Of a stretch of 64,000 bases of DNA, positions 1 to 64,000 are shown one piece after another. The stretch is taken from NCBI GenBank assembly GCA_940746715.1, contig CALNWN010000001.1, forward strand, positions 806,001-870,000. Reading direction: 5' to 3'. Under the pieces are notes generated by a model that was not told the origin of the DNA, did not search any database, and saw only the letters and a list, made by a program, of their open reading frames with translations. This stretch comes from an uncultured Paraburkholderia sp. GTDB lineage: Bacteria > Pseudomonadota > Gammaproteobacteria > Burkholderiales > Burkholderiaceae. How positions within the stretch are numbered: the first letter of the stretch is position 1; every line of letters begins with the position of its first letter. The position numbers and the translations under genes are program-made.

Positions 1-1191
1 TGCGGGCTCTTCCTCGGGCCGGGCGATGCCGAACACCTGGCGCAAATACGCGAGATACGCCTTGTCTTCGCACATGTTCTTGCCCGGCGAATCCGACAGC
101 TTGGCCACCGGCTGCCCGTTGCAGCGAACCATCTTGATGACGATCTGCAGCGGGTTATAACCCAGGTCGTTGGTGAGATTCGTGCCGACGCCGAACGCAA
201 GCTTACAGCGGCCGCGAAAGCGCTCGTATAGCTGCAGCACCTTGGGAATGTCGAGCGCGTCGGAGAACACGAGAATCTTCGTGCGCGGATCGCAACGGTT
301 CGCCTCGTAGTGCTTGAGCAGGCGCTCGCCCCAGTCGAACGGGTCGCCCGAGTCGTGGCGCGCGCCGTCGAACAGCTTGCAGAAGTACATGTCGAAGTCG
401 CGCAGAAACGCCTGCATGCCGTAGACGTCTGACAGCGCGATCCCGAGGTCGCCGCGATATTCCTTCGCCCACATTTCGAAGCCGAAAATCTGCGAATCGC
501 GCAGCCGCGGACCCAGTGCCTGACACGCCTGCAAATACTCGTGCGCCATCGTGCCGAGCGGCGTGAGGCCGTGCTTCATCGCGTAATAGACATTGCTCGT
601 GCCGGCGAACTGCTCGCCGAGACCGTCCTTCAGCGTGAGAATCACTTCTTCGTGCCATTGCTTCGAGAAGCGGCGACGGGTGCCGTAATCGGCGATCTTG
701 CAGTCGGCGGATTCCGGCCGAGCGCCGAGCAGTTTCATCTTTTCGACGAGGCGTCCGCGGCCTTCGCTGTAGTCCGGTTCCTGTTGCGTGTTGCGGAAGT
801 AGACCTCGTTGACGATCGCGAGCATCGGAATCTCGAAGAGGATGGTGTGCAGCCACGGCCCCTTGATCTCGATGTCGATCTCGCCATTGTTTTTGGGCGA
901 CGGCCCGATCGAAATGTACTTCTCGTTCAGATGGAAAAGCGCGAGAAATTCGATGAAATCGCCCTTGATGAAGCGCATGCGCCGCAGGTAGTCGAGTTCC
1001 TCGTCGGTAAAACGCAGCTTGCAGAGCTTGCGCACTTCCGCGCGAATCTCGCCGATATACGGCACGAGGTCGACATTGGGCGTGCGGCAACGGAAGCGAT
1101 ACTCGACGTTGGCCGCCGGAAAGTGATGCAGGACCACCTGCATCATCGTGAACTTGTACAGATCGGTGTCGAGCAGCGAAGTAATAATCAT
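1..1191 (-). CDS. pncB: Nicotinate phosphoribosyltransferase (3' end beyond window)
   Basis: Cytoplasmic enzyme of the NAD salvage pathway that joins nicotinate to PRPP with ATP to give nicotinate mononucleotide. The reading frame is open from the ATG at 1191 to the window edge, about 397 residues, close to the full family length of about 400, so only the last few residues are missing. Family segments visible are YGTRRR (about residue 169), GTSNVYY (about 197) and GTMAHE (about 213), the last being the conserved region around the histidine that is phosphorylated during catalysis. The start [14 protein letters not shown] is typical of the family. No lesions are seen. The opposite-strand reading frames over it are shadows. 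The assignment is very secure. Confidence 0.95.
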
Positions 1192-1488
1192 GATGGTGCG
1201 AACGGGACCGCGGGAAAGACGAAAGGCCTGACTCAACCCATGCATACGGCGCGCGTCGTGCGCACCGGCTTGACGCATGTTACCCGAATGCGCCGGCCTT
1301 CAGGCTTCGGCGCGCGGCCCGTCGGCCGCCGCCTCGCCCGCTCCCGTTACTTCCGGCCGGCGCAATAAACTAATCACGAAAACATATTAAAGGCAGGGTG
1401 CGATGCTGCATGCGCCTCTTGACGTTACGTTACAATAGCGCTTTTGGCGTTTGCGCCTTCCCTGATTCCGCATGCAGGAGCTGCCTGA

Positions 1489-1812
1489 ATGACTCACGTT
1501 GTGACCGAAAGCTGCATCAAGTGCCGCTATACCGACTGCGTCGATGTGTGCCCGGTGGACTGCTTTCGCGAAGGTCCCAACTTCCTCGCGATCGACCCCG
1601 ATGAATGCATCGACTGCGCCGTCTGCGTGGCCGAGTGCCCGGTGAACGCCATTTACGCCGAAGAAGACGTGCCGGGCGACCAGCAGAATTTCATCGAACT
1701 GAATGCCGACCTCGCCAAGACCTGGCCGAGCATCACGAAAACGAAGGCGCCGCTGCCGGAAGCCGACGAGTTCAAGGACGTCAAGGAAAAGCTCGCGCTG
1801 CTCGTGCGCTGA
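1489..1812 (+). CDS. fdxA: 7Fe ferredoxin FdxA
   Basis: Small soluble electron carrier of 107 residues. The cysteine pattern is that of Azotobacter FdI-type ferredoxins. Cys9, Cys17 and Cys50 should hold a 3Fe-4S cluster, and Cys21, Cys40, Cys43 and Cys46 a 4Fe-4S cluster; Cys12 and Cys25 are extra. Both CP motifs (CPVDC and ECPVN) are present, and the C-terminal half is the usual acidic extension. It is a monocistronic gene in the 297-base gap after pncB, which is transcribed the other way, so that gap must hold both promoters. The redox partner cannot be told from context. Intact. Confidence 0.96.
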
Positions 1813-1871
1813 GCGTTCCAGCCTGTCGCGCGCCCTGCCCGCTTCAATCAAATTGAGATGAACGCGAGGTA

Positions 1872-1900
1872 TTGACAGGCGCTTAAGCTGCTCCTACAAT
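1872..1900 (+). promoter_or_regulatory. Sigma-70 promoter of tRNA-Asn
   Basis: A consensus -35 TTGACA (1872-1877) and a near-consensus -10 TACAAT (1895-1900) are separated by exactly 17 bases. They lie 27 bases before the first base of the tRNA, which fits transcription starting near 1907 and leaving a short leader. Confidence 0.85.
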
Positions 1901-2887: not shown

Positions 2888-3779
2888 ATGACCGCCGCCC
2901 ACCGTTTCCGCAATTCCGCCCGTTACTGGCGCACGCCGCTGCTGCCCGGCGCGGATCTGCTTACGGCCGAATATCACGACCACGAATTCGCGCCGCATTG
3001 GCATGACGCGTACACCATCCCGGTGATCGTCGCGGGCGCGGAGGGTTACCGGTACCGCGGCTCCGACTATGTCGCCGAAGCGGGTGGCGTGCCGATCATC
3101 AACCCGGGCGAGCTGCACACCGGCTCGAAGGCGGTGGAGGCCGGCTGGCGCTACCGCGTGATTATGCGCCGGTGCCGTTCATCCGGCGTGATGTATGCGC
3201 CGGTGCCGTTCATCCGGCGTGATGTATGCGCCGGTGCCGTTCATCCACGAACTCGCCGACGACGTCGCCGGCAAGCCGCAGCCGCTGCCCTGGTTCGCGC
3301 CCGGCGTCATCCGCGATCCGGACCTCGCCGCGCGGCTCGCCAACGCCCACCGCCTGCTCGAAGCCGGCACCGACGCCCTCGCCGCCGAGGCCGCGATGCT
3401 CGACGCGCTGTCCGCGTTGCTCGTGCGCTATTCGCAGACGCAGCCGGAGCCCACGCGCGTCGCGCCTCACGACGCCCGCGTCGCCGTGATGAAAGAGCGT
3501 CTGACAGGCGACCTGCTCGAGGCTGTCACGCTCGCCCAGGTGGCCGAGGCCGCCGGCCTTTCGCCGTTCCACGCGGCGCGCCTCTTCACTCGCGCGACCG
3601 GGCTGCCGCCGCACGCATGGCGCAACCAGGTGCGCCTGCAACGCGCGCTCGCGCCGCTGCGCGCGGGCGTTCCGGTGACGGAGGTGGCCGCCGCCAGCGG
3701 CTTTACCGACCAGAGCCATTTCACCCGGCATTTCCGGCGCATGTTCGGCGTGCCGCCGGGGCGCTGGCAGGGACTTTGA
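2888..3779 (+). pseudogene. AraC-family transcriptional regulator, frameshifted by tandem repeat
   Basis: The N-terminal half (from ATG 2888) is a cupin-type AraC sensing domain, with HDHEFAPHWHDAYT and NPGELHTG. The C-terminal half, in another frame and ending at 3779, has the double helix-turn-helix of the family (LAQVAEAAGLSPFHAARLF, then VAAASGFTDQSHFTRHFRR). The frames are separated by a 31-bp unit present about three times (3163-3246). The first copy also lacks one base at its left boundary compared with the later copies. One copy with the missing base restored would read through as RVMYAPVPFIHE, so the gene was once whole. It lies just upstream of azlCD and was probably its regulator; this is a frequent arrangement for AraC regulators and amino acid exporters. 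Confidence 0.9.
3163..3246 (+). repeat. 31-bp tandem repeat, about 2.7 copies
   Basis: Copies start at 3163, 3194 and 3225 and are identical where they overlap; the third copy stops matching after about 22 bases. The period of 31 is not a multiple of three, so the two extra units destroy the AraC reading frame. It lies wholly inside a coding region, which points to a recent slippage or duplication event, or an assembly artefact. Confidence 0.93.
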
Positions 3780-3853: not shown

Positions 3854-4591
3854 TTGACCCAGTCGAACCAATTAAAGGAATTCACCGCCGGCGCGCGCGA
3901 CATCATCCCGATGATGGTCGGCACCGCGCCCTTCGGCGTGATCTACGGCACGCTCGTCGCGTCCGGCCCGCTGCAGCTGTGGCACGGCCAGTTGATGTCG
4001 CTCGTCGTGTTCGCCGGCTCGGCGCAGTTCATCGTGCTCGGGCTGATCGCCGGTCACGCGAGTTTCGCGGTGATCTGGGCGACCACGTTCGTCGTCAATC
4101 TGCGGCACGTGCTGTACAGCGCGACGCTCGCGCCGCACGTCGCGCATCTGCCCGCACGCTGGCGCTGGGCGCTCGGCGCGCTGCTCACCGACGAAATGTT
4201 CGCCGTCGCCTGGGAGCACTACCGCAACCGTGAGCCGGGCACTGTCGGCCCGCATTATTTCTTCGGCGCCGGTCTCGCGATGTATCTGAACTGGCAGTCG
4301 TGGACGGTGGCGGGCCTGCTGTTCGGCGCGGCCTTCCCCGGCCTGCAGTCACTCGGGCTCGATTTCGCGATGGTGGCGACGTTTATCGCGATCGTCGTGC
4401 CGCAACTGGTGGCCTTGCGCTATATCGCGGCTGCGGCGACGGCCGGCACGCTTGCGTTTCTGTGGCAGGCGTGGCCGTACAAGCTCGGCCTGCTCGGCGC
4501 GGTGTTCGCGGGCGTCGCCGTCGGTGTCGTGCTCTCGGCGCCGGGGCTTCGCCCGCGGCGCGCGCGCCGGTCCGCGGAGGCATCGCGATGA
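3854..4591 (+). CDS. azlC: AzlC family branched-chain amino acid exporter, large subunit
   Basis: A 245-residue inner membrane protein of the AzlC/YgaZ family, the large subunit of two-component exporters for branched-chain amino acids. The N-terminal part GARDIIPMMVGTAPFGVIYG and the segment FAGSAQFI are family hallmarks, followed by several hydrophobic helices. The start is an unusual TTG at 3854. It is chosen because AGGAGG lies at 3842-3847, six bases upstream, and no in-frame ATG precedes the conserved region. Its stop overlaps the start of azlD (ATGA, 4588-4591), which indicates translational coupling. Because azlD and the upstream AraC regulator are broken, this intact subunit is probably without its partner. 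Confidence 0.9.
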   Translation: MTQSNQLKEFTAGARDIIPMMVGTAPFGVIYGTLVASGPLQLWHGQLMSLVVFAGSAQFIVLGLIAGHASFAVIWATTFVVNLRHVLYSATLAPHVAHLPARWRWALGALLTDEMFAVAWEHYRNREPGTVGPHYFFGAGLAMYLNWQSWTVAGLLFGAAFPGLQSLGLDFAMVATFIAIVVPQLVALRYIAAAATAGTLAFLWQAWPYKLGLLGAVFAGVAVGVVLSAPGLRPRRARRSAEASR

Positions 4592-4916
4592 ACTACGTCC
4601 TCCTCATACTCGGCATGGCGCTCATCACCTGGGTGATCCGCGCCACAGTTTTCGTCTTCGGCGACCGGCTGGTGTTCCCGCCGCTGGTGCGCACGGCCCT
4701 CGGCTTCTGCCGGTCACCGTGCTGACGGCCATTATCGTGCCGATGGCCGTCTCGCCGCACGGCGCCGAGGCCGGCGCGGAGCTGACCTGGCGCAATCCGC
4801 AACTGGTCGGCGCGCTCGCCGCCATCGCGGCGAGTGCACTGACGCGGCGGCCACTTCTCACCATCGCGATCGGGCTGATGGTGTTTTTTGTCTGGCAGTG
4901 CATAGTACTCAGGTAG
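4588..4916 (+). pseudogene. azlD: AzlD family exporter small subunit, frameshifted
   Basis: Small membrane partner of AzlC, normally about 100-110 residues. From ATG 4588 the frame reads MNYVLLILGMALITWVIR and on to RTALGF near 4707, then fails and stops at 4725. The remainder continues in another frame from PVTVLTAIIVPM to the end at 4916, finishing with a typical hydrophobic helix. A single missing base after the GF codons (expected a valine codon before PVTV) explains both halves. Transport by AzlCD needs both subunits, so the pair is likely non-functional. Confidence 0.88.
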
Positions 4917-6119: not shown

Positions 6120-8230
6120 TCAGTCCCACATCTTCCTGAGCCTCGCCCCGATTTCCAGCCTGGCCTGCGCCGCGGCGGCCAGCCCCGCGGCGCTCAGCGT
6201 GCTCGGCACAGGGACGCGCGGCCACGCATAGGCGTCGAACAACGGCATGAGATGCGCGGGAATGAAGCGCGTGCGCGACGCCCAGACATGGCGGTCGCCC
6301 AGATGCGTCTGATTGTGCACATAAAAACGCTGCGGCACGACGATATGCAGGTCTTCCTTCGCGCGCGTCATCGCTACATAGAGCAGACAGCGCTCTTCGT
6401 CGATGTCTTCTTCGCTGCCCATGCCCAGGTCGGACGGAATGCAGCCGTCGACGCCATTCAGCACGAACACGTTGCGCCACTCCTGCCCTTTCGCCGAATG
6501 GATGGTGGAGAGGATCAGATAGTCTTCGTCGACGAGCGGCACGCCCGACTCGTCGCTGGTGGCGTCCGGCGGATCGAGCGTGAGTTCCGTCAGAAAGCCT
6601 TCGCGCAACGCATACGTGCCCGCGATGCTTTCCATTTGCAGCACGTCGGCATGGCGGATCGCGGCGTCTTCGTGATTGCGCGCGAGATGCGGCTCGTACC
6701 AGCGCCGTACCATCTCGAATTCGGCGGGCCAAGGCGTCTCGCGCCCGTACACGCTCGACATCAGCTTGACGAACGGATGCCAGTCTTCCTGCGCGCGGGG
6801 CGGCGGGGCGAACGCCGCGAGCGCGCCTGCCGCCGTCTCGACGGCATCGCCAGCGGCGGCGCTGGCGCGCGCGACGATGTCGTCCAGCACCTTCGCGGCG
6901 GTGGCCGGCCCCACGCCCGGCAGCAGCTGCACGACACGGAAACCCGCCACGCGGTCGCGCGGGTTCTCAGCCCAGCGCAGCACCGCGAGCACGTCCTTGA
7001 CGTGAATCGAATCCAGAAACTTGAGCCCGCCGAATTTCACAAACGGAATATTGCGCCGCGTGAGTTCGATTTCGAGCGCGGCGCTGTGATGCGCGGCGCG
7101 AAACAGCACGGCCTGCGACTTAAGCTTCATGCCCTGCTCGCGTGCTTCGAGCACCTGCTCGACGACGTAGCGCGCCTGGTCGGCCTCGTCGGCGACCGTC
7201 ACGAGACGGGGGCGCTGTGCCGACGCCTTGTCGGTCCAGAGGTTCTTTGTATAGCGCTCGCGGGCCAGCTCGATGACCGCCATTCGACGCCGCGAGGATC
7301 GGCTGCGTGGAGCGGTAATTGCGCTCCAGCGTGATGCGCGTGGCGGGCAGATCGAACTGCGCGGGGAAGTCGAGAATATTGTGCACTGTCGCGCCGCGAA
7401 ACGAATAGATGGATTGGGCGTCATCGCCCACTACGGTCAGGCCGCGCCCGTCCGGCTTGAGCGCAAGGAGAATGGACGCCTGCAGGCGGTTCGTGTCCTG
7501 ATATTCGTCGACCAGCATGTGGTCGAAGCGCGCCGACAGATCGGCGGCAATGGCCGGCTCCGCGGCCATATGCGACCAGTAGAGCAGCAGGTCGTCGTAA
7601 TCGAGCACGCTCTGCTTCTGCTTTGCGTCGACGTAGGCGGCGAACAGCATGCGCAAATCCGCTTCCCATTCGCGGCACCACGGAAACGCGCTCTCCAGCA
7701 CCTGGCCGAGCGACGCGCCTGTGTTCACGACCCGCGAGTAAATGGCGAAACAGGTTCCCTTGGCCGGAAAGCGCCGCTCTTTCGCCGACAGCCCCAGTTC
7801 GTGGCGCACCAGGTTCATCAGGTCGGCGGAATCTTCGCGGTCGTTGATCGTGAAGGCGGGCGCGAGGCCGATAAGCTCCGCGTATTCGCGCAAGAGCCGC
7901 GCGCCGACGCTATGAAACGTGCCGGCCCAGGTCAGCCCTTGCGCGAGCGCGGCGCGAAAACGTCAGCAGCAGGATTCTGCGCGGGTCGGCGCCCTTCACC
8001 ATCAAATTGGCGACGCGATGCGCGAGCGTGTTGGTCTTGCCGGAACCCGCGCCTGCGATCACCAGCAGCGCGCCGGGCGGCGCATGCGGTGTATCGGCGC
8101 CGTATTCGACGGCCACGCGCTGCGCGTCGTTGAGCTTGGCGAGCCACGCGGCGGCGTCGGAGGGCGGAGATTCGGCGACGGAAAGCACGATGTTTTGGCA
8201 GGCGTTGGATGGATCGAGGATGGCGACGCA
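6120..8230 (-). pseudogene. UvrD/Rep-like ATP-dependent DNA helicase, broken
   Basis: Superfamily 1A helicase. The N-terminal piece has the Walker A motif AGAGSGKTNTLAHR and ends at LLTFSRR. The middle piece has TWAGTFHSVGARLL, the Walker B motif LVDEYQDTN and motif III VVGDDAQSIYSFRGA. The C-terminal piece (in frame with the stop at 6120) has motif V STIHSAKGQEW and motif VI LLYVAMTRAKEDL. Near 7955 the sequence jumps from TFSRR straight to ALAQGLTWAGTFHS with a frame change, so the stretch between motifs I and Ia appears shortened. A second frameshift lies near 7285. The start is uncertain and the N terminus is approximate. This is a secondary helicase, not necessarily the only UvrD of the cell. 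Confidence 0.88.
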
Positions 8231-8364
8231 TACTGTATATCCATACAACCCCGGCGCACAAGCGCCCTTTTTTCGGGACGCGGGGCGCGACCTGCCGGCG
8301 GACTGCCGCGTGAGCTGCATCGGCTCTGTCACGCCTGCGGCGTCTGAGAGCACTCGCAAAGACA

Positions 8365-10307: not shown

Positions 10308-11720
10308 ATGACCCAATCCGGCTTCACCCGGACGACCGCCCGTCCGCCGACTTTCTCGCGCCACGCCGCCGATACCGCCCGGCTCGCCGCGTCGCTCGCC
10401 ATCGCCCAACTGTCGCAAATGGCGATGGGCGTCACCGACACGATCCTGCTCGGCTCGCTCGGCCCCGACGCGCTCGCGGGCCGGCGGGCTCGGCGCGAAC
10501 CTGTTTTTCGTCGTCGTGACGCTGCTGCAGGGCGTGCTCACGTCGGTTAGCGTGAGCGTGTCGCATGCGCGCGGCGCGCAGGACGAGAGCCGCGTGCCGC
10601 ACATCTCTACTGGACGGGTCTGGTGCTGTCGGTGCTGTCGGTGCTGCTGTCCGTGCCGGCGTTCGCGTTGCTGTCGTTCGCGACGCAGATTCTGCTCGCG
10701 TTCGGCGAACCCGCGCTGCTCGCGCACAACGTCGGCCAATACGCGGCCGTGCTGCGCTGGGGCGCGCTCGGCAGCCTGATCGGCGTCGGTCTGATGCGCT
10801 CGTTTCTACCGGCGATCGGCGCGGCGCGGCGGCTGCTGTGGGTGTCGCTCGTGAGCGTCGGCGTGAACGGCTTTTTGAACTACGGGCTGATTCACGGCGC
10901 GTACGGCCTGCCGCGGCTCGGCTTTCTCGGCTCGGCCGCGGCGACGTCGATCACGGTCTGGCTCACGGCGCTCGTGCTGATGGCGCTGCTGCACCTGCGG
11001 CCGCGCTATCGGCACTTCGTGGTCGCGACGCGCCCCAACGTCCCGCTGATGGGAGAACTCTTCGGCATCGGCTGGCCGGTTGCGATCACCTACGGCGTCG
11101 AGTCGACGCTCTTTCTCGCCACAGGCCTGATGGTCGGCCTGCTCGGCGAGGCGCAACTGGCCGCGCATCAGATTGCGCTGAATGTCGCCTCGGTGGCGTT
11201 CATGGTGCCGCTTGCGATCGGCCAGGCGGCCAATGTGCGAGTCGGCTTCTGGTCCGGCGCCGGACAGCCGCTCGCCGCGCGCCACGCGGGTTTCGTCACG
11301 CTCGCGCTCGGCGTCGGCTTCATGACGCTCTCGGGTATCGTGCTGATCGCGGCGCCGCATTGAATCGTCGGCTTGTACCTGCATCTGGACGATCCTGCGA
11401 ATGCGGCGACCGTCGCGCTCGCCAGTTCGCTGCTCGGCGTGGCCGCCATTTTTCAGATCGTCGACGGAGGTTCAGGTTGCCTGCGCGGCCTGAAAGACAC
11501 GCGCATTCCGATGATGGCGGCCGCCTTCGGTTACTGGGTGATCGGCTTTCCGACCGGCTACATGCTTGCGTTTCATTTTGGGCTGGGCGCGCGCGGTTTG
11601 TGGTGGGGACTCGCGGCGGGTCTCGCGAGCGTCGCGCTGCTGATGACGCTGCGCTTTCACAAGCTGAGCCTGCGCCGCGTGCCGGCGGCCGCGGATGCGC
11701 CGCCCGCCGCATCAGTTTAA
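10308..11720 (+). pseudogene. MATE family multidrug efflux pump, multiple lesions
   Basis: Remnant of a 12-helix MATE (NorM-like) transporter of about 470 residues. From ATG 10308 the frame reads to GVTDTILLGSLGPDALAG near 10480 and then shifts. A middle segment contains NLFFVVVTLLQGVLTSVSVSVSHARGA with NLFF in the first three residues, and another shift occurs near 10606 before YWTGLVLSVL. The long C-terminal frame has family features (MVGLLGEAQLAAHQIALN, SGCLRGLKDTRIPM) but is cut by TGA at 11361-11363. The same frame resumes immediately with IVGLYLHLDD to the stop at 11720; the codon was probably tryptophan. Two frameshifts and one nonsense codon make function very unlikely. Confidence 0.92.
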
Positions 11721-12211: not shown

Positions 12212-13091
12212 ATGCTTGCCCGCATCACCCGTCTCTTTCCGCTTTGGGCCGTGCTCATTTCGGTCGCCGCGTGTTTGTTGTTCACCGGCTTCGTTCGGCG
12301 GCATCGCGCCGCACTTCACCACGCTCCTCACCATCATCATGCTGGCGATGGGCGTCACGCTGTCCGTCGCGGACTTTCAGCGCGTCTTCACGCGGCCCGC
12401 GCCGGTGATCGCCGGCATGGTGCTGGTCGGCAGCGTGGCGAGCGGCATGGCGTCGAACGTGATGATCTATCTCGCGCGCGGCGACGTCGCGCTCTCGGTG
12501 ACGATCAGCGCGCTGTCCACCCTCGTCGGCGTGTTTGCGACGCCGCTGCTCACGCGTCTTTACGTGGATGCGTCGATCGCCGTCGACGTCCACGGCATGC
12601 TGATGAGCATTCTGCAAATCGTCGCGCTGCCGATCGTCGTCGGGCTCGCGGTGAACCATCTGTTCGGCAAGGCGGTGCGCAAGGTGGAGCCGGTGCTGCC
12701 GCTCGTGTCGATGGTGGCGATTCTGCTGATCATCGGCGCGGTGGTGAGCGGCACGCAAAAGAGCATTGCGTCGGTCGGTCTCGTCGTCATGCTCGGCGTC
12801 GTGCTGCATAACGGCATCGGGCTGCTCGGCGGTTATTGGGGCGGCCGCCTGCTCGGTTTCGACGAAGCAGTGTGCCGCACGCTCGCCATCGAAGTCGGCA
12901 TGCAGAACTCGGGCCTCGCGGCGACGCTCGGCAAACTCTATTTCACGCCGATCGCCGCATTGCCGGGCGCCCTCTTCTCCGTGTGGCACAACCTGTCGGG
13001 CTCGCTGCTGGCGGGCTTCTGGGCGGGACGCCCTGCGAAAGGCTCGACGCATCCCGACGGCAAACCCGTACTGAACGCCGAGCGCGTCTGA
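12212..13091 (+). pseudogene. Bile acid:sodium symporter (BASS) family transporter, broken
   Basis: Remnant of a BASS-family secondary transporter. The start [15 protein letters not shown] at 12212 is followed by a frameshift near 12295 (an extra base before GGIAPHFTT). The rest runs to 13091 with family segments [29 protein letters not shown] and [15 protein letters not shown]. After [17 protein letters not shown] the sequence passes straight to [11 protein letters not shown]. In the family one more transmembrane helix of about 30 residues is expected here, so an in-frame internal deletion is inferred, probably between two copies of the AGMVL coding sequence. The conserved GTASN segment reads GMASN. 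Confidence 0.87.
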
Positions 13092-16262: not shown

Positions 16263-16265
16263 TGG

Positions 16266-51448: not shown

Positions 51449-52441
51449 TTACACCTGGCCGAATAGCCAACGTACGTATCGGTTGACACCTTCCTGCACG
51501 CTCAGGAACGGCGCGTCGTAGCCAGCCGCGCGCAGCTTCGACAGGTCCGCCTGCGTGAAGCACTGATACTTGCCGCGCAATGCGTCGGGAAACGGGATGT
51601 ATTCGATCAGCCCGCGTTGCACCTGGTCGGCGAGCGAAAGCGGCGGCTCGTTGTTCAGCGCGCGCAGCGTGTTGACGACCGTGCTCGCAATGTCGTTGAA
51701 CGGTTGCGCGCGGCCGCTGCCCAGATTGAAGATGCCCGACTTGTCCGGATGGTCGAAGAAGAACAGGTTCACCTTCACGACATCTTCGACGGAAACGAAA
51801 TCGCGCGTCTGTTCGCCGGCGGCATAGCCGTTGTATTCGCCGAACAGCTTGACCTTGCCCTCGGCGCGGAACTGGTTGAAGTTGTGGAACGCGACCGACG
51901 CCATGCGCGCCTTATGCGTTTCGCGCGGGCCGTACACGTTGAAATAGCGGAAACCGGCGATCTGGCTTTTCGCGCCCGGCAGCACGCGCCGAATCACCTG
52001 GTCGAACAGGAACTTCGAGTAGCCGTACACATTGAGCGGCTGCTCGACTTCGCGCTCTTCGACGAAACGGCTCGAGCCGCCGTAAGTCGCGGCTGACGAC
52101 GCGTACAGGAACTGGATGTTCTGCGCGGGGCAGACGTCCAGCACGTCGCGGCTATAGCGGAAGTTGTTGTCCATCATGTAGCGGCCGTCGGTTTCCATCG
52201 TGTCCGAACAGGCGCCCTCGTGGAAAATCGCGCGCACGCGGCCGAAGTCGCCGCGCCTGAGGCGTTCGAGGAATTCGGTCTTGTCCAGATAGTCGTCGAT
52301 TTCGCAGTCGACCAGATTCTTGAACTTGTCCGCGCGCGTCAGATTGTCGACCGCGATGATGCGTTGTTCGCCGCGCTCGTTGAGCGCTTTCACGAGATTG
52401 CTGCCGATAAAGCCGGTCGCGCCGGTGACGATGAGGGTCAT
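51449..52441 (-). CDS. hldD: ADP-L-glycero-D-manno-heptose-6-epimerase
   Basis: A 330-residue short-chain dehydrogenase-type epimerase that makes ADP-L-glycero-beta-D-manno-heptose for the LPS inner core. The N-terminal nucleotide motif is [16 protein letters not shown], and the catalytic YxxxK is in [12 protein letters not shown] (Tyr about residue 140). [16 protein letters not shown] is diagnostic. Third gene of ugd-rfaE1-hldD, separated from rfaE1 by a large hairpin. Intact. Confidence 0.96.
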
Positions 52442-52527
52442 GATGGTCCCGCCGTAGTGTGGCTTGCATGGGACCGAAGCGAGCGCCAGGGCGCGTGCTC
52501 CGGTCGACAGGTTCAGTCGACGCGCCG

Positions 52528-52576
52528 CCGGTCCTCTCGCGCCGCGCTCAGCGGCGCGCGCTCACGAGAGGACCGG
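52528..52576. repeat. Large inverted repeat between rfaE1 and hldD
   Basis: A 12-bp perfect arm (CCGGTCCTCTCG at 52528-52539 and CGAGAGGACCGG at 52565-52576) encloses a second hairpin (CGCCGC at 52540-52545 and GCGGCG at 52551-52556). No T run follows on either strand, so it is not a standard terminator. It may protect or separate the two halves of the operon transcript. Confidence 0.88.
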
Positions 52577-52586
52577 GCGGGCCGCA

Positions 52587-53594
52587 TCAATGAAAGAGTT
52601 CGTCGTAGTCGACGGTGGCCGTGCCGAGTTTGCCGACCACGATGCCGGCCGCGCGATTGGCGAGTCCGACCGCTTCGACGAGCGTGAGACCCGCGCCCAG
52701 CATGGTGGCGAGCGTGGCGATCACGGTGTCGCCCGCGCCCGAAACATCATACACTTCGCGCGCGACGGCCGATGCGTGCAGGATGCCGTCGTCGGAGAAG
52801 AGCGTCATGCCCTCTTCCGAGCGCGTGAGGAGCAAGGCCTTGAACTGCAGATCCGCGCGCAGTTTGCTCACGCGCTCAGTCAGGTCTTCTTCCGATTTCC
52901 ACTGGCCGATCACCTCGCGCAACTCGGCGCGATTCGGCGTGATCAACGTGGCGCCGCGGTAGCGCTCCCAATCGTCGCCCTTCGGGTCGACCAGCACCGG
53001 CTTGCCGGCCGCATGCGCTCTCGCGATCATCTGCGTGACGTGGGTCAGGCCGCCCTTTGCGTAATCGGACATCAGGATCACGTCGTGCGACGGCAGTAAT
53101 TCGTCGAAGCGCGCGAGGCCCGCGAGCAACACCTCGTGCGCCGGCGAGTTTTCGAAATCGACGCGCAGCAGCTGTTGCTGACGCGACAGCACGCGCAGCT
53201 TAATGGTGGTGAGCAGCGCGGGGTCGCGCTCCAGATGCGGATTCACGCCGCTTTCGCCGAGCAGTTGCACGATGCGCTCGCCCGGTTCGTCGTGCCCGAC
53301 GACACACAAGAGACCCGCCTGCGCGCCCAGCGCCGCCGCGTTGCGCGCGACGTTCGCGGCACCGCCGAGGCGGTCCTCCTGGCGCTGCACGTGCACGACC
53401 GGCACCGGCGCTTCCGGCGAGATGCGATTGACGTCGCCGAACCAGTAGCGGTCGAGCATCACGTCACCGACGACCAGCACGCGCGCGGCCGCGAGCTGCG
53501 CGCACGGCACCACCGTCAATGCCGGCGACGGCGACGGCGCGATGGGAGCGGGCCTCGCGTCAGGCATCGGCCGCAAGTTCAGAGGGTTGGGCAT
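52587..53594 (-). CDS. rfaE1: D-glycero-beta-D-manno-heptose-7-phosphate kinase
   Basis: A 335-residue PfkB-family kinase that phosphorylates heptose-7-phosphate at C1 for LPS core synthesis; it corresponds to the N-terminal half of E. coli HldE (RfaE domain I). Features are [19 protein letters not shown] with [23 protein letters not shown] (about residues 70-85), and the PfkB signature [17 protein letters not shown] with the catalytic Asp (about 285). The start at ATG 53594 ([12 protein letters not shown]) overlaps the end of ugd; an alternative ATG is four codons upstream. The adenylyltransferase partner is encoded elsewhere. Intact. Confidence 0.94.
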
Positions 53595-54963
53595 AAGGGC
53601 GTCCAATCGAGTGATAGTCGATGCCGAGTTCGTTCATCGCATCTGGCTCGTACAGATTGCGGCCGTCGAAAATGACCGGCGACTTCAGCACGGATTTCAG
53701 ATGCACGAAGTCCGGGCTCTTGAACTCCTTCCATTCGGTGACGATGACGAGTGCGTCGGCGCCCGTAAGCGTTTCGTCCTGCGTGCTCGTGAAGGTGAGA
53801 CGGGCGAGCTGCTCCGGCGCGTCGTGCAGATCCATTGCGAAGACGCAGCGCGCTTCCGTCACGGCGACCGGATCGTACGCGCGCACCTGCGCGCCGCGCG
53901 CGAGCAGTTCGGCGATCACGCGACGGCTCGGCGCTTCGCGCATGTCGTCGGTATTCGGCTTGAACGCGAGGCCCCAGACGGCGAAGGTGCGGCCTGCCAG
54001 ATCGTTGCCCCACTTGTGCGTGATCTTCTGCACGAGCACGTCTTTCTGCTGGTAGTTCACTTCCTCGACGGCTTCGAGAATGCGCAGATTGTGGCCGCTT
54101 TCGCTGGCCGTGCGGATCAGCGCCTGCACGTCCTTCGGGAAGCACGAGCCGCCATAGCCGCAGCCCGCATACAGGAAGTGATAGCCGATACGCGGGTCCG
54201 AGCCGATGCCGCGGCGCACTGCCTCGATGTCGGCGCCGACCCGGTCCGCGAGATTCGACATCTCGTTCATGAACGAGATGCGCGTGGCCAGCATCGCATT
54301 GGCCGCGTATTTGGTGAATTCAGTCGAGCGCACGTCCATGTACAGCGTGCGTTCGTGATTGCGGTTGAACGGCGCGTAGAGGCGCTTCATCAGTTCGCGC
54401 GCACGCAGGCCGGCTTCGTCTTCGTCGCTGCCGAGCACGATTCGGTCGGGCCGCATGAAGTCGTCCACTGCCGCCCCTTCCTTCAGGAATTCGGGATTCG
54501 ACACGACCGAGAAGCGGTGCTTGTCGCTGCCCGCAAGCCCGCGTTTCGCGAGCTCTTCCTCGACGACTGCGCGCACGCGCTGCGCCGTGCCGACCGGCAC
54601 CGTCGACTTGTCGACGATCACCTTGAAGCCGTTCATCGTGCGGCCGATATTGCGCGCCGCTTCCAGCACGTATTGCAGATCCGCGGAGCCGTCTTCGTCG
54701 GGCGGCGTGCCCACCGCGATGAACTGCACGTCGCCGTGAGCGACACTTGCCTCGATATCCGTCGAAAACGTGATGCGCCCGGCCGCGCGCGTGCGGGCGA
54801 TGATTTCCTGCAGGCCCGGCTCGTGAATGGGCACGCCGCCGTTGTTGAGAATTTCGATCTTGCGCGGGTCGACGTCGAGACAGAAGACGTCGTTGCCGAT
54901 TTCTGCGAGACACGCGCCTGTGACAAGACCCACATAGCCAGTGCCGATAATGGTGATTTTCAT
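53560..54963 (-). CDS. ugd: UDP-glucose 6-dehydrogenase
   Basis: A 467-residue enzyme oxidising UDP-glucose to UDP-glucuronate with two NAD, for polysaccharides and, in this group, for Ara4N modification of lipid A. N-terminal NAD motif [18 protein letters not shown], then [12 protein letters not shown] and the catalytic Cys in [15 protein letters not shown] (about residue 265). The C-terminal domain includes [18 protein letters not shown]. Its stop overlaps rfaE1, so translation is coupled. Intact. Confidence 0.96.
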
Positions 54964-55044
54964 ACGCTTTCCGGTTGAAGGTTCCGGTGATGATTTCCGG
55001 CGATAACGCCGGTCATGAACACGCTGCCAAAGCCGTCCGCGACC

Positions 55045-56220
55045 TCAGTTCGACGCGGTGATCGGCTCGACCCGGCGCGGCGCGTAGGTTTCCCAACCGC
55101 TGCAGCCGGGGCACTGCCAGTAGAAAAGCCGCGCCCTGAAGCCGCAATTCTGGCACGTGTAGCGCGGCAGATTTTTGGTGCGCTGACGGATCAGCGTGCG
55201 CATCAGTTCCAGCTCGCTGCGCCGCGGCTCTTCCGCCACCGCCTGCTGCGCTTCGAGCAGGCGCGTCATGCCAGCGAGGTTCGGCGACTTCTGCATCTGC
55301 GAACGCGCGAGCGCATGGGCGGCGTCCGGCCCGCGCAGCGACGCCACGTGTTGATACGCGACGTCGAGCAGATCGTTGCTCGGATAGCGATCGACCCAGC
55401 TGGTGAGCAGATCCGCGCCTTCCTGCGCGCGGCCGAGCGCTTCGTAGGCCTTCATCAGCTTGTCGGCGACGAGCGGCAGATAAGCAGGATTCTGCTCCTC
55501 GACGCGCCACCACTGGGCGATCGCCGCTTCCTGCGCGCCCGCCGCGGCGTCGACGTCGCCGAACAGAATGGTGGCACGCACGTTGGTCGCATTCGCTTTC
55601 AGCGCGAAGCCGAGCTGGCGGCGCGCTTCGTCGGGCTTTTTCTGCTGCAGCGCTTCCTGCGCGAGCTCGCAGTGGAATTGCGCGATTTCCTTGTCGAGCG
55701 ATTCCGCGCCCATGGTTTCCAGATGCCGTGCGGTGTCGATCGACTTGACCCAGTCCTTCTCGATTTCGTAGATGGTGAGCAGCGCGCGCTGCGCGCCCAA
55801 CGCACAGTCGCCCGTTTCGAGCGAACCGAAAGTTTCTTCCGCGCGATCAAGCAAACCGGCCTTCAGGAAGTCCTGCCCCAATTCGAACAGGGCGTGATCG
55901 CGCTCGCTGACCGGCAGGTCCGCGCGGCTCAGCAGATTCTGATGCACGCGGATTGCGCGGTCCGTCTCGCCGCGGCGCCGGAACAGATTGCCGAGCGCGA
56001 AATGCAGCTCGACGGTTTCCGGGTCGAGCTTGACGACTTCGATAAAGGCGTCGATCGCCTGGTCCGGCTGCTCGTTAAGCAGGAAGTTCAGGCCGCGGAA
56101 ATAGGAACGCGGCAGATTGGCGCTTTCTGACAGCAGCGTCTTGAGGTCGTAGCGCGCAGCCATCCAGCCGAACGCGAAAGCGACGGGGATGACGAGCAGC
56201 CACCAGAAGTCTAGATCCAT
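55045..56220 (-). CDS. lapB: LPS assembly protein B (TPR and rubredoxin-like)
   Basis: A 391-residue membrane-anchored regulator (YciM/LapB) that, with FtsH, controls LpxC turnover and so balances LPS synthesis. The N terminus MDLDFWWLLVIPVAFAFGWM is a single membrane anchor. Several TPR repeats follow (for example NEQPDQAIDAFIEVVKLDPE and EVELHF region LHFALGNLFRRRGETDRAI). The C-terminal metal-binding domain has CQNC and CPGC pairs about 13 residues apart, with FYWQCPGCSGWETY. It follows lapA. Intact, as expected for a gene that is often essential. Confidence 0.95.
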   Translation of the reverse strand: MDLDFWWLLVIPVAFAFGWMAARYDLKTLLSESANLPRSYFRGLNFLLNEQPDQAIDAFIEVVKLDPETVELHFALGNLFRRRGETDRAIRVHQNLLSRADLPVSERDHALFELGQDFLKAGLLDRAEETFGSLETGDCALGAQRALLTIYEIEKDWVKSIDTARHLETMGAESLDKEIAQFHCELAQEALQQKKPDEARRQLGFALKANATNVRATILFGDVDAAAGAQEAAIAQWWRVEEQNPAYLPLVADKLMKAYEALGRAQEGADLLTSWVDRYPSNDLLDVAYQHVASLRGPDAAHALARSQMQKSPNLAGMTRLLEAQQAVAEEPRRSELELMRTLIRQRTKNLPRYTCQNCGFRARLFYWQCPGCSGWETYAPRRVEPITASN

Positions 56221-57271: not shown

Positions 57272-58987
57272 TTACTGGTTCTGGCCGTCGAGCTTGGCCT
57301 TCAGCAGCGCGCCGAGGTTCGTCGTACCAGTGGCTGCTGCGCTGGAATCCGACGAAGCCAGGCCGCGGATCGCTTCCTGTTGCTCAGCCGAGTCCTTCGC
57401 CTTGATCGACAGGTTGATGCCACGCGACTTGCGATCGATGTTGATGATCATCGCGTTGACCTTGTCGCCTTCCTTCAGCACGTTGCGTGCGTCTTCCACG
57501 CGGTCTTGTGCGATTTCCGAAGCGCGCAGGTAGCCTTCGACTTCACCCGACAGCTGCACCACTGCACCCTTCGCGTCCACCGACTTGACCGTGCCGTCGA
57601 CGATCGAACCCTTGTCGTTCATTGCAACGTAGTTGCTGAACGGGTCGCCTTCGAGCTGCTTGATGCCCAGCGAAATGCGTTCCTTTTCGACGTCGATGCC
57701 GAGAACGATCGCTTCCACTTCGTCGCCCTTCTTGTACTTGCGAACCGCTTCTTCGCCCGTTTCCGACCACGACAGATCCGACAGGTGAACCAGACCGTCG
57801 ATGCTGCCCGGCAGACCGATGAAGACGCCGAAGTCGGTGATCGACTTGATCGCGCCTTGCAGCTTGTCGCCCTTCTTGAAGTTGCGGCTGAAGTCGTCCC
57901 ACGGGTTCGGCTTGCACTGCTTCATGCCGAGGCTGATACGGCGGCGGTCTTCGTCGATTTCGAGAACCATGACTTCGACTTCGTCGCCCAGCTGGACAAC
58001 CTTCGACGGCGCAACGTTCTTGTTCGTCCAGTCCATTTCCGACACGTGGACGAGGCCTTCGATGCCCGATTCCACTTCGACGAATGCGCCGTAGTCGGTG
58101 ATGTTGGTGACCTTACCGAACAGGCGCGTGCCCGACGGGTAACGGCGCGAGATGCCTTCCCACGGATCGTCGCCCAGTTGCTTGATACCGAGCGAAACGC
58201 GGTTCTTTTCCTGGTCGAACTTGAGGATCTTCGCGGTGACTTCCTGGCCGACGGACAGCACTTCCGACGGGTGACGCACACGGCGCCATGCGATGTCGGT
58301 GATGTGCAACAGGCCATCGATACCGCCGAGGTCCACGAACGCGCCGTAGTCGGTGATGTTCTTCACCACGCCTTCGACGATCGCGCCTTCCTTCAGCGTT
58401 TCGAGCAGCTTTGCGCGCTCTTCGCCCTGGGTGGCTTCGATCACGGCACGGCGCGACAGCACGACGTTGTTACGCTTGCGGTCGAGCTTGATGACGCGGA
58501 ATTCCAGCGTCTTGCCTTCGTACGGGGTCGTGTCCTTGACCGGACGCGTGTCGACGAGCGAACCCGGCAGGAACGCGCGGATGCCGTTGACCATGACGGT
58601 CATGCCGCCCTTGACCTTGCCCGTGATCGTGCCGGTCACGAGTTCGTTGTTGTCGAGCGCCTTTTCCAGCGACAGCCACGAAGCCAGACGCTTCGCCTTG
58701 TCGCGCGACAGGATGGTGTCGCCATAGCCGTTTTCCAGCGCGTCGATCGCGACGGAAACGAAGTCGCCCGCCTGCACTTCTACCTCGCCCGCGTCATTCA
58801 GGAACTCTTCGAGCGGGATGTAGGCTTCGGACTTGAGACCAGCGTTGACGACCACGAAGTTGTGGTCCACACGCACGACTTCGGCGGAGATCACTTCGCC
58901 GGCGCGCATGTCTTGCTTGGTCAGCGACTCTTCGAACAGAGCCGCAAAAGATTCGGTATTCGGGGTAGAGGTTTGCAGGTCGGACAT
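57272..58987 (-). CDS. rpsA: 30S ribosomal protein S1
   Basis: A 571-residue essential RNA-binding ribosomal protein that brings mRNA to the 30S subunit. Six S1 repeats can be followed along the chain; the clearest carry the pattern [20 protein letters not shown] (about residue 200), [20 protein letters not shown] (about 285) and [20 protein letters not shown] (about 370). The start [20 protein letters not shown] at ATG 58987 matches the family; a further ATG lies six codons upstream. It lies between cmk and ihfB, the usual order. Intact. Confidence 0.97.
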
Positions 58988-59181
58988 AAAAATCAAAATT
59001 TGCATGGTTCTCGCGGCGCCCGGCTGGCCGGAAGGTCAGCGCAACTACGGCAAAACTGCGAATGCCACGCGGGGTTAAGGGGTTAATACAACACTTCGCG
59101 ACAACCGCGAAGCACCTACCAGCAACGGACGACTGCCGCGCGCGCCGCCGGTTCGAAATAGCGATAAAACAGCAACTTCGA

Positions 59182-59868
59182 TCAGCTTTGCGGCACGAGC
59201 GCTTCGTACCATTGCACTACCTGCTCGACCGCCTGATCGACCGACAGGGCGGACGTATCGAGCAGCTTTGCATCCGCTGCGGGCTTAAGCGGCGCGGCTG
59301 CGCGCTGGCTGTCACGCTCGTCGCGCTCGCGCAAATCCCGGAGCAAGTCATCAATATTAGCAGAAAATCCTTTTTGTATCAATTGCTTATGCCGCCGCGC
59401 CGCGCGGGCCTCCACGCTGGCCGTCATAAAGACCTTCAGAACGGCGTCATGGAAGATCACCGTGCCCATGTCGCGACCGTCGGCGACCAGCCCCGGCTCC
59501 TTGCGAAAAGCCCGCTGACGCGCCACCAGGGCGGCGCGCACCGGCGCGTGCACGGCAATCGCCGAAGCGCGGCTGCCGACTTCCTCCGCGCGAATTTCCG
59601 CGGAAACGTCGACGCCGTCGAGCTGGGCAAGACCTTCACGAAACGTGATATGCAGATCGTCGATCAGTTTTACAAGGGCGTCGACATCCTCCGCCCCCAC
59701 CTTGTAGCGCATGCTGGCAAGCGCAGCGAGCCGGTACAGCGCGCCGCTGTCCAGCAGATGAAAGCCGAGGCTGGCGGCGACCAGCGCGGCCACGGTGCCT
59801 TTGCCGGAGGCACTGGGGCCGTCGATCGTAATGACGGGCGTCTGGTGAAAGGGACGGATCGGTTTCAT
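59182..59868 (-). CDS. cmk: Cytidylate kinase
   Basis: A 228-residue kinase that phosphorylates CMP and dCMP. The P loop is [20 protein letters not shown] (about residues 12-30), [13 protein letters not shown] is the CMP-binding start, and [20 protein letters not shown] is diagnostic. [22 protein letters not shown] segment [15 protein letters not shown] forms the lid end. It sits between aroA and rpsA. Intact. Confidence 0.96.
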
Positions 59869-59903
59869 CGAAAAAGTCGCACGTCAGGCGATTCGTACGC
59901 GAA

Positions 59904-61208
59904 TCAGGGGTGAGCAAGCGCCGCGAAGCGCTCGAAATAATCGGGAAAAGTCTTGCCGACGCACTTCGGGTCGTTGATCCGGACGGGCACGCCGCCGAGA
60001 CTCACGAGCGAGAAGCACATGGCCATGCGGTGATCGTCGTAGGTGTCGATAGATGCGTTCGGAATCAGCTTTTCAGGCGGCGTGATCATCAGAAAGTCTT
60101 CGCCCTCCTCCACTTTCGCGCCGACCTTGCGAAGTTCGGTCGCCATTGCCGCGATCCGGTCTGTCTCTTTCACGCGCCAGCTTGCGATGTTGCGCAGCGT
60201 GGTCGTGCCGTCGGCGAACAGCGCGGCAACCGCAATGGTCATCGCAGCGTCCGGAATCAGGTTGAAGTCCATGTCGATCGGATCCAGCTTGCCGTGGTCG
60301 TTGCCGACGCCGCGCACTTCGATCCAGTCCTCGCCCATCTGCAGGTTCGCGCCCATCTTGATGAGCGCATCCGCGAAGCCGACGTCGCCCTGAATGCTCG
60401 ACCGGCCCACGCCCTCCACTTTCAACGGCCCGCCGCCGAGCACGCCCGCCGCGAGGAAATAGGACGCCGACGACGCGTCCCCTTCCACCATGATCGTGCC
60501 CGGCGACTGATAGCGCTGCCCCGCCGGCACGACGAACTGGTGCCAGCCGTGGCGCTCGACGTTGATACCGAAACGCGCCATCAGCTTGATCGTGATCTCG
60601 ATGTAGGGCTTGGAGATCAGTTCGCCGTCCACCTGGACCGTGCTGACGCCGCTTGCCGTGCGCACGAGCGGCAGCGTCATCAGGAGCGAAGTGAGGAACT
60701 GGCTCGAGACGTCGCCGCGCACGCGGATCGGCGCTTCGGCGGAAATCTGCGCCGGGCGGATCCGCAACGGCGGATAGCCCTCGTTTTCCTCGTAGTCAAT
60801 TCTTGCGCCGATCTGCCGCAGCCCGTCGACGAGATCGCCGATCGGCCGCTCATGCATGCGCGGCACCCCGTGGATGCGGTAGTCGCCGCCGTTCACCGAC
60901 AGCGCCGCCGTCAGCGGACGCACCGCCGTGCCCGCGTTGCCGAGAAAAAGGTCGGCCGTGCGCGCCGTGAATGCGCCGCGCGTGCCGGTCACGACACAGG
61001 TATCGCCGTCGCGCTTGACCCGCACGCCGAGCTTTTCGAGCGCGTCGAGCATGACGCGCGTGTCGTCGGAGTCGAGCAGGTTCGTGATCGTCGTTTCGCC
61101 TTCGGCGAGCGCGGCGAGCAGCAGGACCCGGTTCGAAATGCTTTTCGAGCCAGGCAGACGAACCGTGCCGGACGCACGAGAAAAGGGTCCGAGATCGAGG
61201 AATTCCAT
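59904..61208 (-). CDS. aroA: 3-phosphoshikimate 1-carboxyvinyltransferase (EPSP synthase)
   Basis: A 434-residue shikimate-pathway enzyme that joins phosphoenolpyruvate and shikimate-3-phosphate. [19 protein letters not shown] holds the substrate Lys and Arg, and [16 protein letters not shown] is the PEP loop. [20 protein letters not shown] and [12 protein letters not shown] complete the site. The glyphosate-sensitive class I motif [10 protein letters not shown] is unaltered. The ATG at 61208 gives [14 protein letters not shown]; upstream extension is not coding. Follows tyrA. Intact. Confidence 0.96.
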
Positions 61209-62211: not shown

Positions 62212-62263
62212 AGAAAAAGCGCGCCTTTCGGAGAAACGAGGCGCGCGGGTCAAAATTCGCCGC

Positions 62264-63375
62264 CTACGCGGTGGCGAGCGTTTTTTCGAGTGCGGCGATA
62301 AACGCCTCGTTTTCTTCGGGCAGCCCGATCGTCACGCGCAGCCATTGCGGCAAACCGTAATTGCCGACCGGACGCACAATGACGCCCTGCTTCAGCAATT
62401 CGAGATTCACGCGGTTGCCGGCTGCGTCGTCGTCGCCCAGCGCACCAGCACGAAGTTACCGTCGGACGGCACATATTCGAGACCGAGCTTGTCGAATGCT
62501 TCTATCAGACGGCGATAGCCCTGCGCGTTGAGCGCTGCCGACTTCTCCAGAAACGCCTTGTCGTTGAGCGCGGCAATGGCCGCGGCCTGCGCGAGCGTGT
62601 TCACGTTGAACGGCTGGCGCAGACGGTTCAGGAGATCGGTCAACTCCGGCTGCGCAATCGCGAAGCCCACGCGCAGGCCGGCCAGGCCGAACGCCTTTGA
62701 GAACGTGCGCGACACGAGCAGGTTCGGATAACGGCGCACCCATTCGATCGAGTCGTAGCGCTTTTCCGCCGGCAGGTATTCCGTGTACGCCTCGTCCAGC
62801 ACGACGGCCACGTGGCGCGGCACCTCGTCGAGAAACGCTTCGAGCTTCGGACCTTCGATGAACGTGCCCGTCGGATTATTCGGATTGGCGACGAAGATGA
62901 GCCGGGTGTCGTCGGTGATCATCGCGGCGAGCATCGCATCGAGATCGTGGCCGAACTTCACCGCCGGCACGACGATCGCGCGCGCCCAAACCTTGGGTGG
63001 CAGCGCGTAGACCGCGAACGAATACTGCGCGTAAATGATGGACTACCCTTTTTCGACGAACGCGTGCGCGGCGATTTCGAGAATGTCGTTACTGCCGTTG
63101 CCGAGCGTGATCCAGTCGGACGGTACGCCGTAGCGTTCGCCGAGCGCGGTCTTCAGCTCGAACGCATTCGCGTCGAGATAGCGGCCCAATTCGCTCGCGG
63201 CCCGCGCCATTGCACGTTGAGCCGACTCGGGCATGCCGAGCGGATTCTCGTTCGACGCCAGTTTCACGATTTTCGCCTCGTCCAGCCCGAACTCGCGCGC
63301 GACTTCCGAAATCGGCTTGCCCGCGATGTAAGGCGCAATGGCGCGCACGTAAGAAGGACCGAAGGACGTTGTCAT
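62264..63375 (-). pseudogene. hisC: Histidinol-phosphate aminotransferase, three lesions
   Basis: A class II PLP aminotransferase of about 370 codons. From ATG 63375 the frame reads YVRAIAPYIAGKPISEVARE, ASNENPLGMPESA and GNGSNDILEIAAHAFVEKG, then TAG at 63043-63045; the expected residue is Gln (QSIIYAQYSFAVYAL follows in the same frame). A frameshift near 63000 precedes TQGLGARAIVVPAVKFGHD. PNNPTGTF and the PLP lysine segment SRTFSKAFGLAGLRVGF are clean. A further shift near 62430 precedes DDDAAGNRVNLELLKQG, and the gene ends ALEKTLATA at 62264. In this group a second hisC is normally in the his operon. Confidence 0.93.
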
Positions 63376-63460
63376 GAAATCTCCGAACGATTATTAGAAA
63401 AGTCGCGACGAGCGCACCGGCGTACTGGCTGGCCGGCGCTTGTTCGCGGGTTGCCAGTCA

Positions 63461-64000
63461 TCAGCGGGCGCGCGGATACGAGCCCAGAATCTTCAGGAAT
63501 GCCGCTTTCTCGCCGAGCTCGGTCAACGCGGCGGCCACGGCCGGATCGTCGCGATGACCTTCGACGTCGATATAGAAGTAGTACTCCCACGTGCCGACGC
63601 GCGCCGGACGCGATTCGAAGCGGGTCATGGAAACGCTGTGGCGCGCAAGCTGCTCGAGCAGCTTGAACACCGCGCCCGGCTCGTTCGGGACCGACACGAT
63701 CAGCGACGTCTGGTCATGGCCGCTCGCGCCCGTGCGCTCCTTGCCGATCATCACAAAGCGGGTACGGTTGTGCGGATCGTCCTGAATCAGCGCGTACGCG
63801 ACCTGCAAACCGTAGTGCGACGCGGCGCGAGCGCCGGCGATGGCCGCGACGGTCGGATCTTCCGCCGCCATGCGCGCCGCTTCGGCATTGCTCGACACGG
63901 CCTGGCGCTCGAGATGCGGCGCGTTGCTCGCGAGCCAGCGCAGGCACTGCGCGAGTGCCTGTGCGTGCGCGCAGACGCGCGTGACGCCGGTCAGGCCGCC
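63461..64000 (-). CDS. pheA: Chorismate mutase/prephenate dehydratase, C-terminal part (5' end beyond window)
   Basis: The last 180 codons are visible, open to the window edge. They hold the end of the prephenate dehydratase domain (AVSSNAEAARMAAEDPTVAA, then AGARAASHYGLQ, and TRFVMIGKER with the conserved TRF motif) and the ACT regulatory domain (TSLIVSVPNEPGAVFKLLEQ; MTRFESRPARVGTWEYYFYI, with the ESRP phenylalanine-binding motif). This bifunctional enzyme makes phenylpyruvate. It is first in the order pheA-hisC-tyrA-aroA. No damage seen in this part. Confidence 0.95.
   Translation of the reverse strand, partial: GGLTGVTRVCAHAQALAQCLRWLASNAPHLERQAVSSNAEAARMAAEDPTVAAIAGARAASHYGLQVAYALIQDDPHNRTRFVMIGKERTGASGHDQTSLIVSVPNEPGAVFKLLEQLARHSVSMTRFESRPARVGTWEYYFYIDVEGHRDDPAVAAALTELGEKAAFLKILGSYPRAR

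Follow-up and report, generated by a model that had tools for sequence, protein, structure and literature searches.

Early genome erosion in a Paraburkholderia lineage, likely in a life restricted to plant leaves

We analyzed a 64,000-nucleotide stretch (the window; contig C1, positions 806001-870000) of the genome assembly of an uncultured Paraburkholderia, here G000 (5,181,803 bases in 51 contigs; completeness, 99.93%; contamination, 0.13%), together with the adjacent 155 kb (the flank) and an EVS-like gene on another contig. After its split from a sister near P. phenoliruptrix, the lineage has lost close to a third of its genes in the window through breakage or deletion, by lesions that the sister lacks and that are spread through window and flank alike. 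Early genome erosion, likely from relaxed selection and drift in a life restricted to plant leaves, explains these data best, and we put its probability at roughly 0.78. Eroding leaf-symbiont genomes are already known, and this one would be an additional case. Since the sister is only a few percent away, nearly every gene death can be assigned to one short branch, so that the course of early symbiont erosion, in its order, rate, and mechanism, becomes directly measurable and may be tied to the gain of a host-relevant gene.

RESULTS AND DISCUSSION

The genome and its intact sister

LapB encoded in the window shares 98% identity with its counterpart in Burkholderia sp. WSM2230 versus 82 to 84% with those of Caballeronia species; the genus is therefore Paraburkholderia, and by these LapB identities the core genes of the assembly lie outside the Caballeronia leaf-nodule clade. 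A search of 144 genomes of the genus with one broken gene, phospholipase D/cardiolipin synthase-like, identified a sister (G080; 7.3 Mb) with a full-length match at 96% nucleotide identity, the next relatives standing at 89%. One protein of the sister shares 99% identity with one labeled P. phenoliruptrix, and to judge by sequence the sister is, or is very near, that species. Gene order in the window is collinear with that of four relatives, interrupted by gaps alone; the contig of the relative G011 begins at about window position 5077.

A smaller genome and a lower coding density than those of relatives are both borne out for the assembly. Its 5.18 Mb compares with 6.3 to 8.6 Mb among the nine closest relatives, and the coding density of the window is 0.713 versus 0.776 to 0.855 in six relatives. 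Ten 20-kb stretches on other contigs have a mean density of 0.69 (range, 0.43 to 0.86), compared to 0.79 for ten stretches of the relative G006 and 0.82 for nine of the sister; single stretches overlap widely among genomes.

Gene loss in the window and its flank

Genes were called with a simple codon-usage open reading frame caller. The sister has 63 genes of at least 80 amino acids in the window, 61 of them with an intact or near-intact orthologue in G006, and gene-by-gene alignment of these 61 found 36 intact, 7 with minor changes, 14 disrupted, and 4 missing. In three of the seven minor cases, the PanS, MFS transporter, and alpha/beta hydrolase genes, frameshifts occur early and the gene is probably dead, which brings the total to 18 clear and 3 probable losses. 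The original prediction, made from the letters of the window alone, had counted about 18 of some 61 genes as broken and three more as probably so; the numbers agree, with the qualification that the 18 here include near-complete deletions and that the two gene lists need not be equal.

As a symmetric control, both genomes were searched for the G006 genes with an intact or near-intact counterpart in G011 (54 of 60). The picture was the same: the window has lost 18 of the 54 (13 disrupted and 5 missing or largely deleted) and the sister none (Fisher P = 1.4e-6), so that alignment to orthologues, proposed with the original prediction as a check, bears it out. G099 was rejected as a further pseudogene control (80 kb of its contig covered, 22 of the 54 genes without a match there); the remaining 32 genes comprise 26 intact, 5 with minor changes, and 1 in a run of N. 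The flank lay outside the view of the original prediction, and there 51 of the 134 genes that pass the same filter, from 142 in the sister, are lost (42 disrupted and 9 missing). Raw flank counts against all 163 G006 genes (44 disrupted and 43 missing or largely deleted here, 2 and 7 in the sister) exaggerate the loss because some genes lie beyond the contig end, and the filtered counts are preferred.

Lost genes fall mainly into the classes that had been predicted (Table 1): transporters (MATE, PanS, MFS, MetN, MetI, and AzlD), regulators (two AraC-type, one ArsR-type, and one sigma-54 NtrC-type), and catabolic enzymes (acyl-CoA dehydrogenase, enoyl-CoA hydratase, a lipase-like hydrolase, and a sorbosone-dehydrogenase-like gene). 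The damaged competence gene is ComEA-like, and the broken hisC is indeed a duplicate, for three hisC-type genes of the genome score above the family cut-off and the two outside the window are intact.

Less conserved genes are lost more often. Ranked by sister-G006 protein identity over window and flank, the quartiles from most to least conserved lose 10 of 48, 13 of 48, 24 of 48, and 22 of 51 genes (Mann-Whitney P = 0.006). The claim that essential genes are spared thus holds as a trend and not absolutely, about a fifth of the most conserved quartile being lost, and loss that reaches some highly conserved genes suggests drift, beyond disuse alone. The individual genes named as clean are free of lesions, orn and ihfB among them, with thyA identified through a Pfam match of the sister protein; cysM is kept as well. 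Two of the names fared less well: the supposed folA is an intact, dihydrofolate-reductase-like gene with best scores under the curated cut-offs, and the intact 84-amino-acid gene called rpsP gained no match at the cut-off applied.

Relaxed selection on a short branch

For each of 57 genes (35 intact and 22 lesioned), substitutions were polarized against G099, G011, and G006 or against two of these; the set leaves out four genes that are deleted and some seeds that were duplicates or doubtful. For intact genes, the ratio of nonsynonymous to synonymous substitution rates (dN/dS) is 0.138 (95% interval, 0.106 to 0.178) on this branch versus 0.062 (0.035 to 0.093) on the sister branch; for lesioned genes, it is 0.266 (0.207 to 0.351) versus 0.107 (0.063 to 0.176). 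Five of the 22 lesioned genes are doubtful, one because the window end truncates it and four because their changes are compensated or confined to the ends; when these are dropped, the result holds for the remaining 17 (0.262 versus 0.114). Purifying selection appears relaxed even among the surviving genes, and the comparison of intact with broken genes that had been suggested comes out as erosion would have it. The synonymous branch length is 0.029 here and 0.033 to 0.038 on the sister branch (two gene sets), both low estimates because changes were counted only where the outgroups agree.

An EVS-like gene in common with leaf-nodule symbionts

Leaf endophytes of non-nodulated Vanguerieae, those of Globulostylis excepted, are reported to stay in Paraburkholderia (PMC10405798), and the genome was therefore tested for the leaf-nodule cyclitol enzyme, EVS. 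It has three genes of the DHQ synthase family, one of them a short remnant, versus one in each of nine Paraburkholderia relatives. The intact extra gene (G000:C17:20301-21506, minus strand) encodes an EVS-like protein of 401 amino acids. Its closest solved structure is 4p53, annotated "Cyclase," which we take to be ValA. Among the best 120 of 1985 matches, an unnamed protein from a contig of 1.5 kb shares 90% identity; Candidatus P. kirkii and a metagenome-assembled genome of an uncultured Caballeronia each share 88%, calva 86%, and humilis 83%; outside the leaf-symbiont group identity falls to 61% and then 53%. In the tree, the protein lies within a clade (starred) with the leaf-symbiont sequences, with support of 96/98.

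Distribution and divergence are both suggestive of transfer. Among 398 evenly drawn genomes of the family, matches at E of 1e-100 or less occur in this genome and in five of one other genus (2.4 to 6.2 Mb) only. Synonymous divergence (dS) of the EVS-like gene from those five is 0.29 to 0.54, below the 0.77 to 1.15 between LapB, one core gene, and its counterparts in nine Caballeronia, and dN/dS of the EVS-like gene is 0.14 to 0.21. In addition, three leaf-symbiont genomes of the other genus have in common with this one a chimeric fragment (C17:18415-19064) that fuses the EVS leader to a GH4-like piece; it is truncated in all four, its frame being interrupted here and in two others and open over 159 codons in G410. 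The shared junction favors transfer of the DNA as a block, and the EVS region would have been acquired horizontally from the leaf-symbiont pool. An EVS search of a plasmid collection returned only distant matches, the best at 44.9% among those listed.

Contigs C17 and C20, with GC contents of 57% and 56%, also carry remnants of EVS, and its leader occurs on them in repeated copies. Many repeats of a 90- to 190-bp stretch that takes in the leader and the first codons are found on C17, C20, C21, and the leaf-symbiont contigs. At their starts, C20 and C21 have an identical end of 127 bp, of the kind that a k-mer assembly graph leaves, and these two contigs are therefore probably adjacent. The 20-kb stretch C4:50001-70000, with a coding density of just 0.43, contains an 80%-identical match to C17:34939-35881.

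Comparison with known host-associated bacteria

The analogy to leaf-nodule symbionts drawn in the original prediction is further supported by the EVS-like gene and has to be corrected in the genus. Kirkii, calva, and humilis, the leaf-nodule symbionts of Psychotria, resemble this genome in the EVS gene and, for three genomes of the group, in the truncated chimeric fragment, but their core genomes are Caballeronia, and at the DNA level EVS alone of the leaf-nodule operon is intact here, the GH4-like gene being present only as a fragment. Massive erosion, with EVS on plasmid pKIR01, is reported for Candidatus B. kirkii (PMC8599487). The non-nodulating endophytes of Vanguerieae (Fadogia and Vangueria) are alike in genus. 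Endophytes with 99.4% 16S identity to B. phenoliruptrix were reported from 5 plant species of Vanguerieae, in 16 specimens, and that bacterium is the species nearest to their operational taxonomic unit 7 (PMC3555867); the sister of this genome belongs to it or stands very near it. A Rubiaceae leaf symbiont is what the sequence best fits, and by analogy the most likely guess for the host plant would be Vangueria or its kin. Our literature searches found no published description of this genome. Danneels and others are said to have described, in Environmental Microbiology in 2023, eroded leaf endophyte genomes of Burkholderia sensu lato with horizontally acquired cyclitol genes, and this assembly, we presume, may well be among them. 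A further parallel is Sodalis glossinidius, a gammaproteobacterium of an insect host. For that facultative endosymbiont, too, a high load of pseudogenes is reported (PMC7067036), the likeness being one of description.

Several observations weigh against erosion through restriction to leaves. The Vanguerieae association is called rather loose and its endophytes cultivable (PMC3555867), a poor fit to a strongly eroded genome that looks restricted. The ROK, DegT, GFO, HAD, and cupin genes of the leaf-nodule EVS operon were not found in a DNA-level search, which could miss divergent versions. Contig C17 has no near-identical link to the chromosome stretches compared (80 to 85% at best), and a binning error may possibly have brought it into the assembly. 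No shift toward AT was found at fourfold sites (GC>AT to AT>GC, 131:17 here versus 130:22 on the sister branch), unlike in many eroding symbionts, where the shift commonly comes later. Insertion-sequence proliferation is common, not universal, in early-stage eroding host-restricted genomes, and in the two transposase families counted no excess over six relatives was seen (PF00665, 7 versus 0 to 14; PF01609, 3 versus 0 to 14), counts in which short-read assemblies may collapse copies. Some single-base lesions could be read errors. Finally, dN/dS of the broken genes is far below 1, and most of them would therefore have died late, in what we infer to be roughly the last fifth or less of the branch.

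Other explanations of the damage

Decay might be real and yet have another cause, either a different host (fungus, insect, or amoeba) or a bottleneck in which no host was involved; the EVS contig would then be incidental or a binning contaminant. The missing chromosomal link of C17 would fit, as would the amoeba-associated P. bonniea and P. hayleyella, of the same genus and with reduced genomes of 4.1 Mb; these are reported, however, to be stable and without excess pseudogenes (PMC9601139), whereas the present genome is in flux. We regard this explanation as unlikely, given the near confinement of the EVS-like gene to leaf-symbiont genomes, the match, albeit indirect, of the sister species to published leaf endophytes, and the low contamination estimate.

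The possibility that most lesions are sequencing or assembly errors of a draft is very improbable. Over window and flank, 179 frameshift lesions (116 deletions and 63 insertions) sit in 72 of 182 genes, where random placement by length expects 105.8 (standard deviation, 4.4), and the lesion-free genes total 89 kb. Frameshifts are accompanied by 18 nonsense codons and by deletions of several hundred bases or entire genes. Homopolymers are enriched for lesions, as read errors would have it: runs of at least 3 hold 26 of the 63 single-base lesions, and runs of at least 4 hold 11, versus 17% and 3.5% at random. This enrichment implies that slippage contributes, and the other 37 lie in runs shorter than 3. 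A second assembly of the species was not found in a search with a fragment of the phospholipase D-like gene (42 matches, all at 87% identity or less). Clumping of the lesions, together with dN/dS raised in the same lineage even in intact genes, means that read errors are not the explanation, and the large deletions rule them out further as the main cause; the original prediction had dismissed draft indel errors as well, and its diagnosis of early erosion is strengthened by similar damage in the flank.

Streamlined genomes have high coding density and few pseudogenes. Adaptive streamlining would account for a genome smaller than those of relatives, as in the two amoeba symbionts, but it is scarcely credible at a coding density of 0.713, with 13 of the 18 lost reference genes still visible in place.

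Early erosion under host restriction, which we infer from the evidence above, might then have proceeded as follows. The EVS region would serve production of a cyclitol of value to the host, and restriction to that host would lower the effective population size and make transporters, regulators, and catabolic genes dispensable. Gene death would come from nonsense changes, from small indels of the slippage type, and from deletions, a portion of which may have joined short direct repeats, and would involve neither a mutator nor a burst of transposition. For repeat-mediated deletion the data are no more than suggestive: microhomology of at least 4 bp is seen at 18 of the 89 deletions of at least 8 bp versus 4.2% at random, with a median of 0, in a set that includes fragmented alignments of deleted genes and in which BLAST end extension inflates junction overlaps. 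A mutator was rejected on the lack of a synonymous excess and on a MutL-type gene open over 712 amino acids, MutS not having been searched. Transposon-driven decay was likewise rejected, on the counts of the two transposase families, the window itself having been checked for insertion sequences via gene tables only.

A fuller account is, in our judgment, an even bet: leaf symbiosis may have arisen in a second genus when a P. phenoliruptrix-like soil bacterium received the cyclitol DNA and the chimeric fragment as a block, after which nearly a third of the genes would have been lost within about 3% synonymous change, with no mutator or transposon burst, leaving the intact sister as the other half of a near-perfect before/after pair.

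Genes of the window

Coordinates of the damaged genes and of the intact controls are collected in Table 1.

TABLE 1 Damaged genes, followed by intact controls, in window coordinates
Feature	Position	Strand	State	Lesion or basis
AraC-family regulator	2888..3779	+	broken	61-bp insertion
AzlD branched-chain amino-acid transport subunit	4588..4916	+	broken	1-nt deletion; AzlC partner intact
UvrD/PcrA/Rep-like helicase	6120..8257	-	broken	65-bp deletion, 1-nt insertion
MATE-family transporter	10308..11720	+	broken	two frameshifts, one nonsense codon
PanS-type transporter	12212..13091	+	probably broken	early frameshift, 84-bp deletion
Phospholipase D/cardiolipin synthase-like gene	13199..14847	+	broken	one frameshift, two nonsense codons
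Deletion junction	16262..16300	.	sister's YciA-like thioesterase gene absent	~1.4 kb missing
FtrA-like AraC-family regulator	16290..16654	-	remnant	remainder deleted
MFS transporter	16651..17797	-	probably broken	frameshifts near both ends
ArsR-family regulator	18506..19139	+	broken	92-bp deletion
Sigma-54-dependent NtrC-type regulator	23278..24515	-	broken	five frameshifting deletions
CobD/CbiB family gene	32499..33326	-	broken	several frameshifts
Sorbosone-dehydrogenase-like gene	36941..38041	+	broken	six frameshifts
PA0069-type radical SAM gene	38764..38890	-	remnant	remainder deleted
Acyl-CoA dehydrogenase	41022..42788	-	broken	four frameshifts
MetI methionine ABC permease	45635..46288	-	broken	nonsense codon
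MetN methionine ABC ATPase	46278..46679	-	remnant	633-bp deletion
Alpha/beta hydrolase (lipase-like)	46921..47854	+	probably broken	early frameshift, late nonsense codon
Enoyl-CoA hydratase	47867..48041	-	remnant	~1.4 kb missing at 11-bp direct repeat
ComEA-like helix-hairpin-helix gene	51008..51372	-	broken	frameshift, nonsense codon
Third hisC-type aminotransferase	62264..63375	-	broken	three frameshifts, one nonsense codon
fumC	14862..16262	+	intact control	broken gene on one side, deleted gene on other
thyA	21978..22973	-	intact control	Pfam match of sister protein
rplS, trmD, rimM	34217..36148	-	intact controls	alignment to sister, named by family match
hldD, rfaE-type kinase, 467-aa gene, lapB	51449..56220	-	intact controls	
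rpsA	57272..59005	-	intact control	alignment to sister, named by family match
cmk, aroA	59182..61208	-	intact controls	alignment to sister, named by family match

The helicase, 733 amino acids long in the sister, scores under the curated cut-offs for UvrD, PcrA, and Rep. The lapA, DarP, RsgA, and DUF2007 genes show changes at their ends or compensated changes and nothing more. The DUF6600 gene (19365-21887) is open and differs from that of the sister by an insertion of 225 bp and a deletion of 168 bp, each preserving the frame; the two proteins are 79% identical. The tRNA-Asn gene at 1928-2003 is single, versus a tandem pair at the same place in the sister and G006, and one copy has therefore probably been lost in this lineage.

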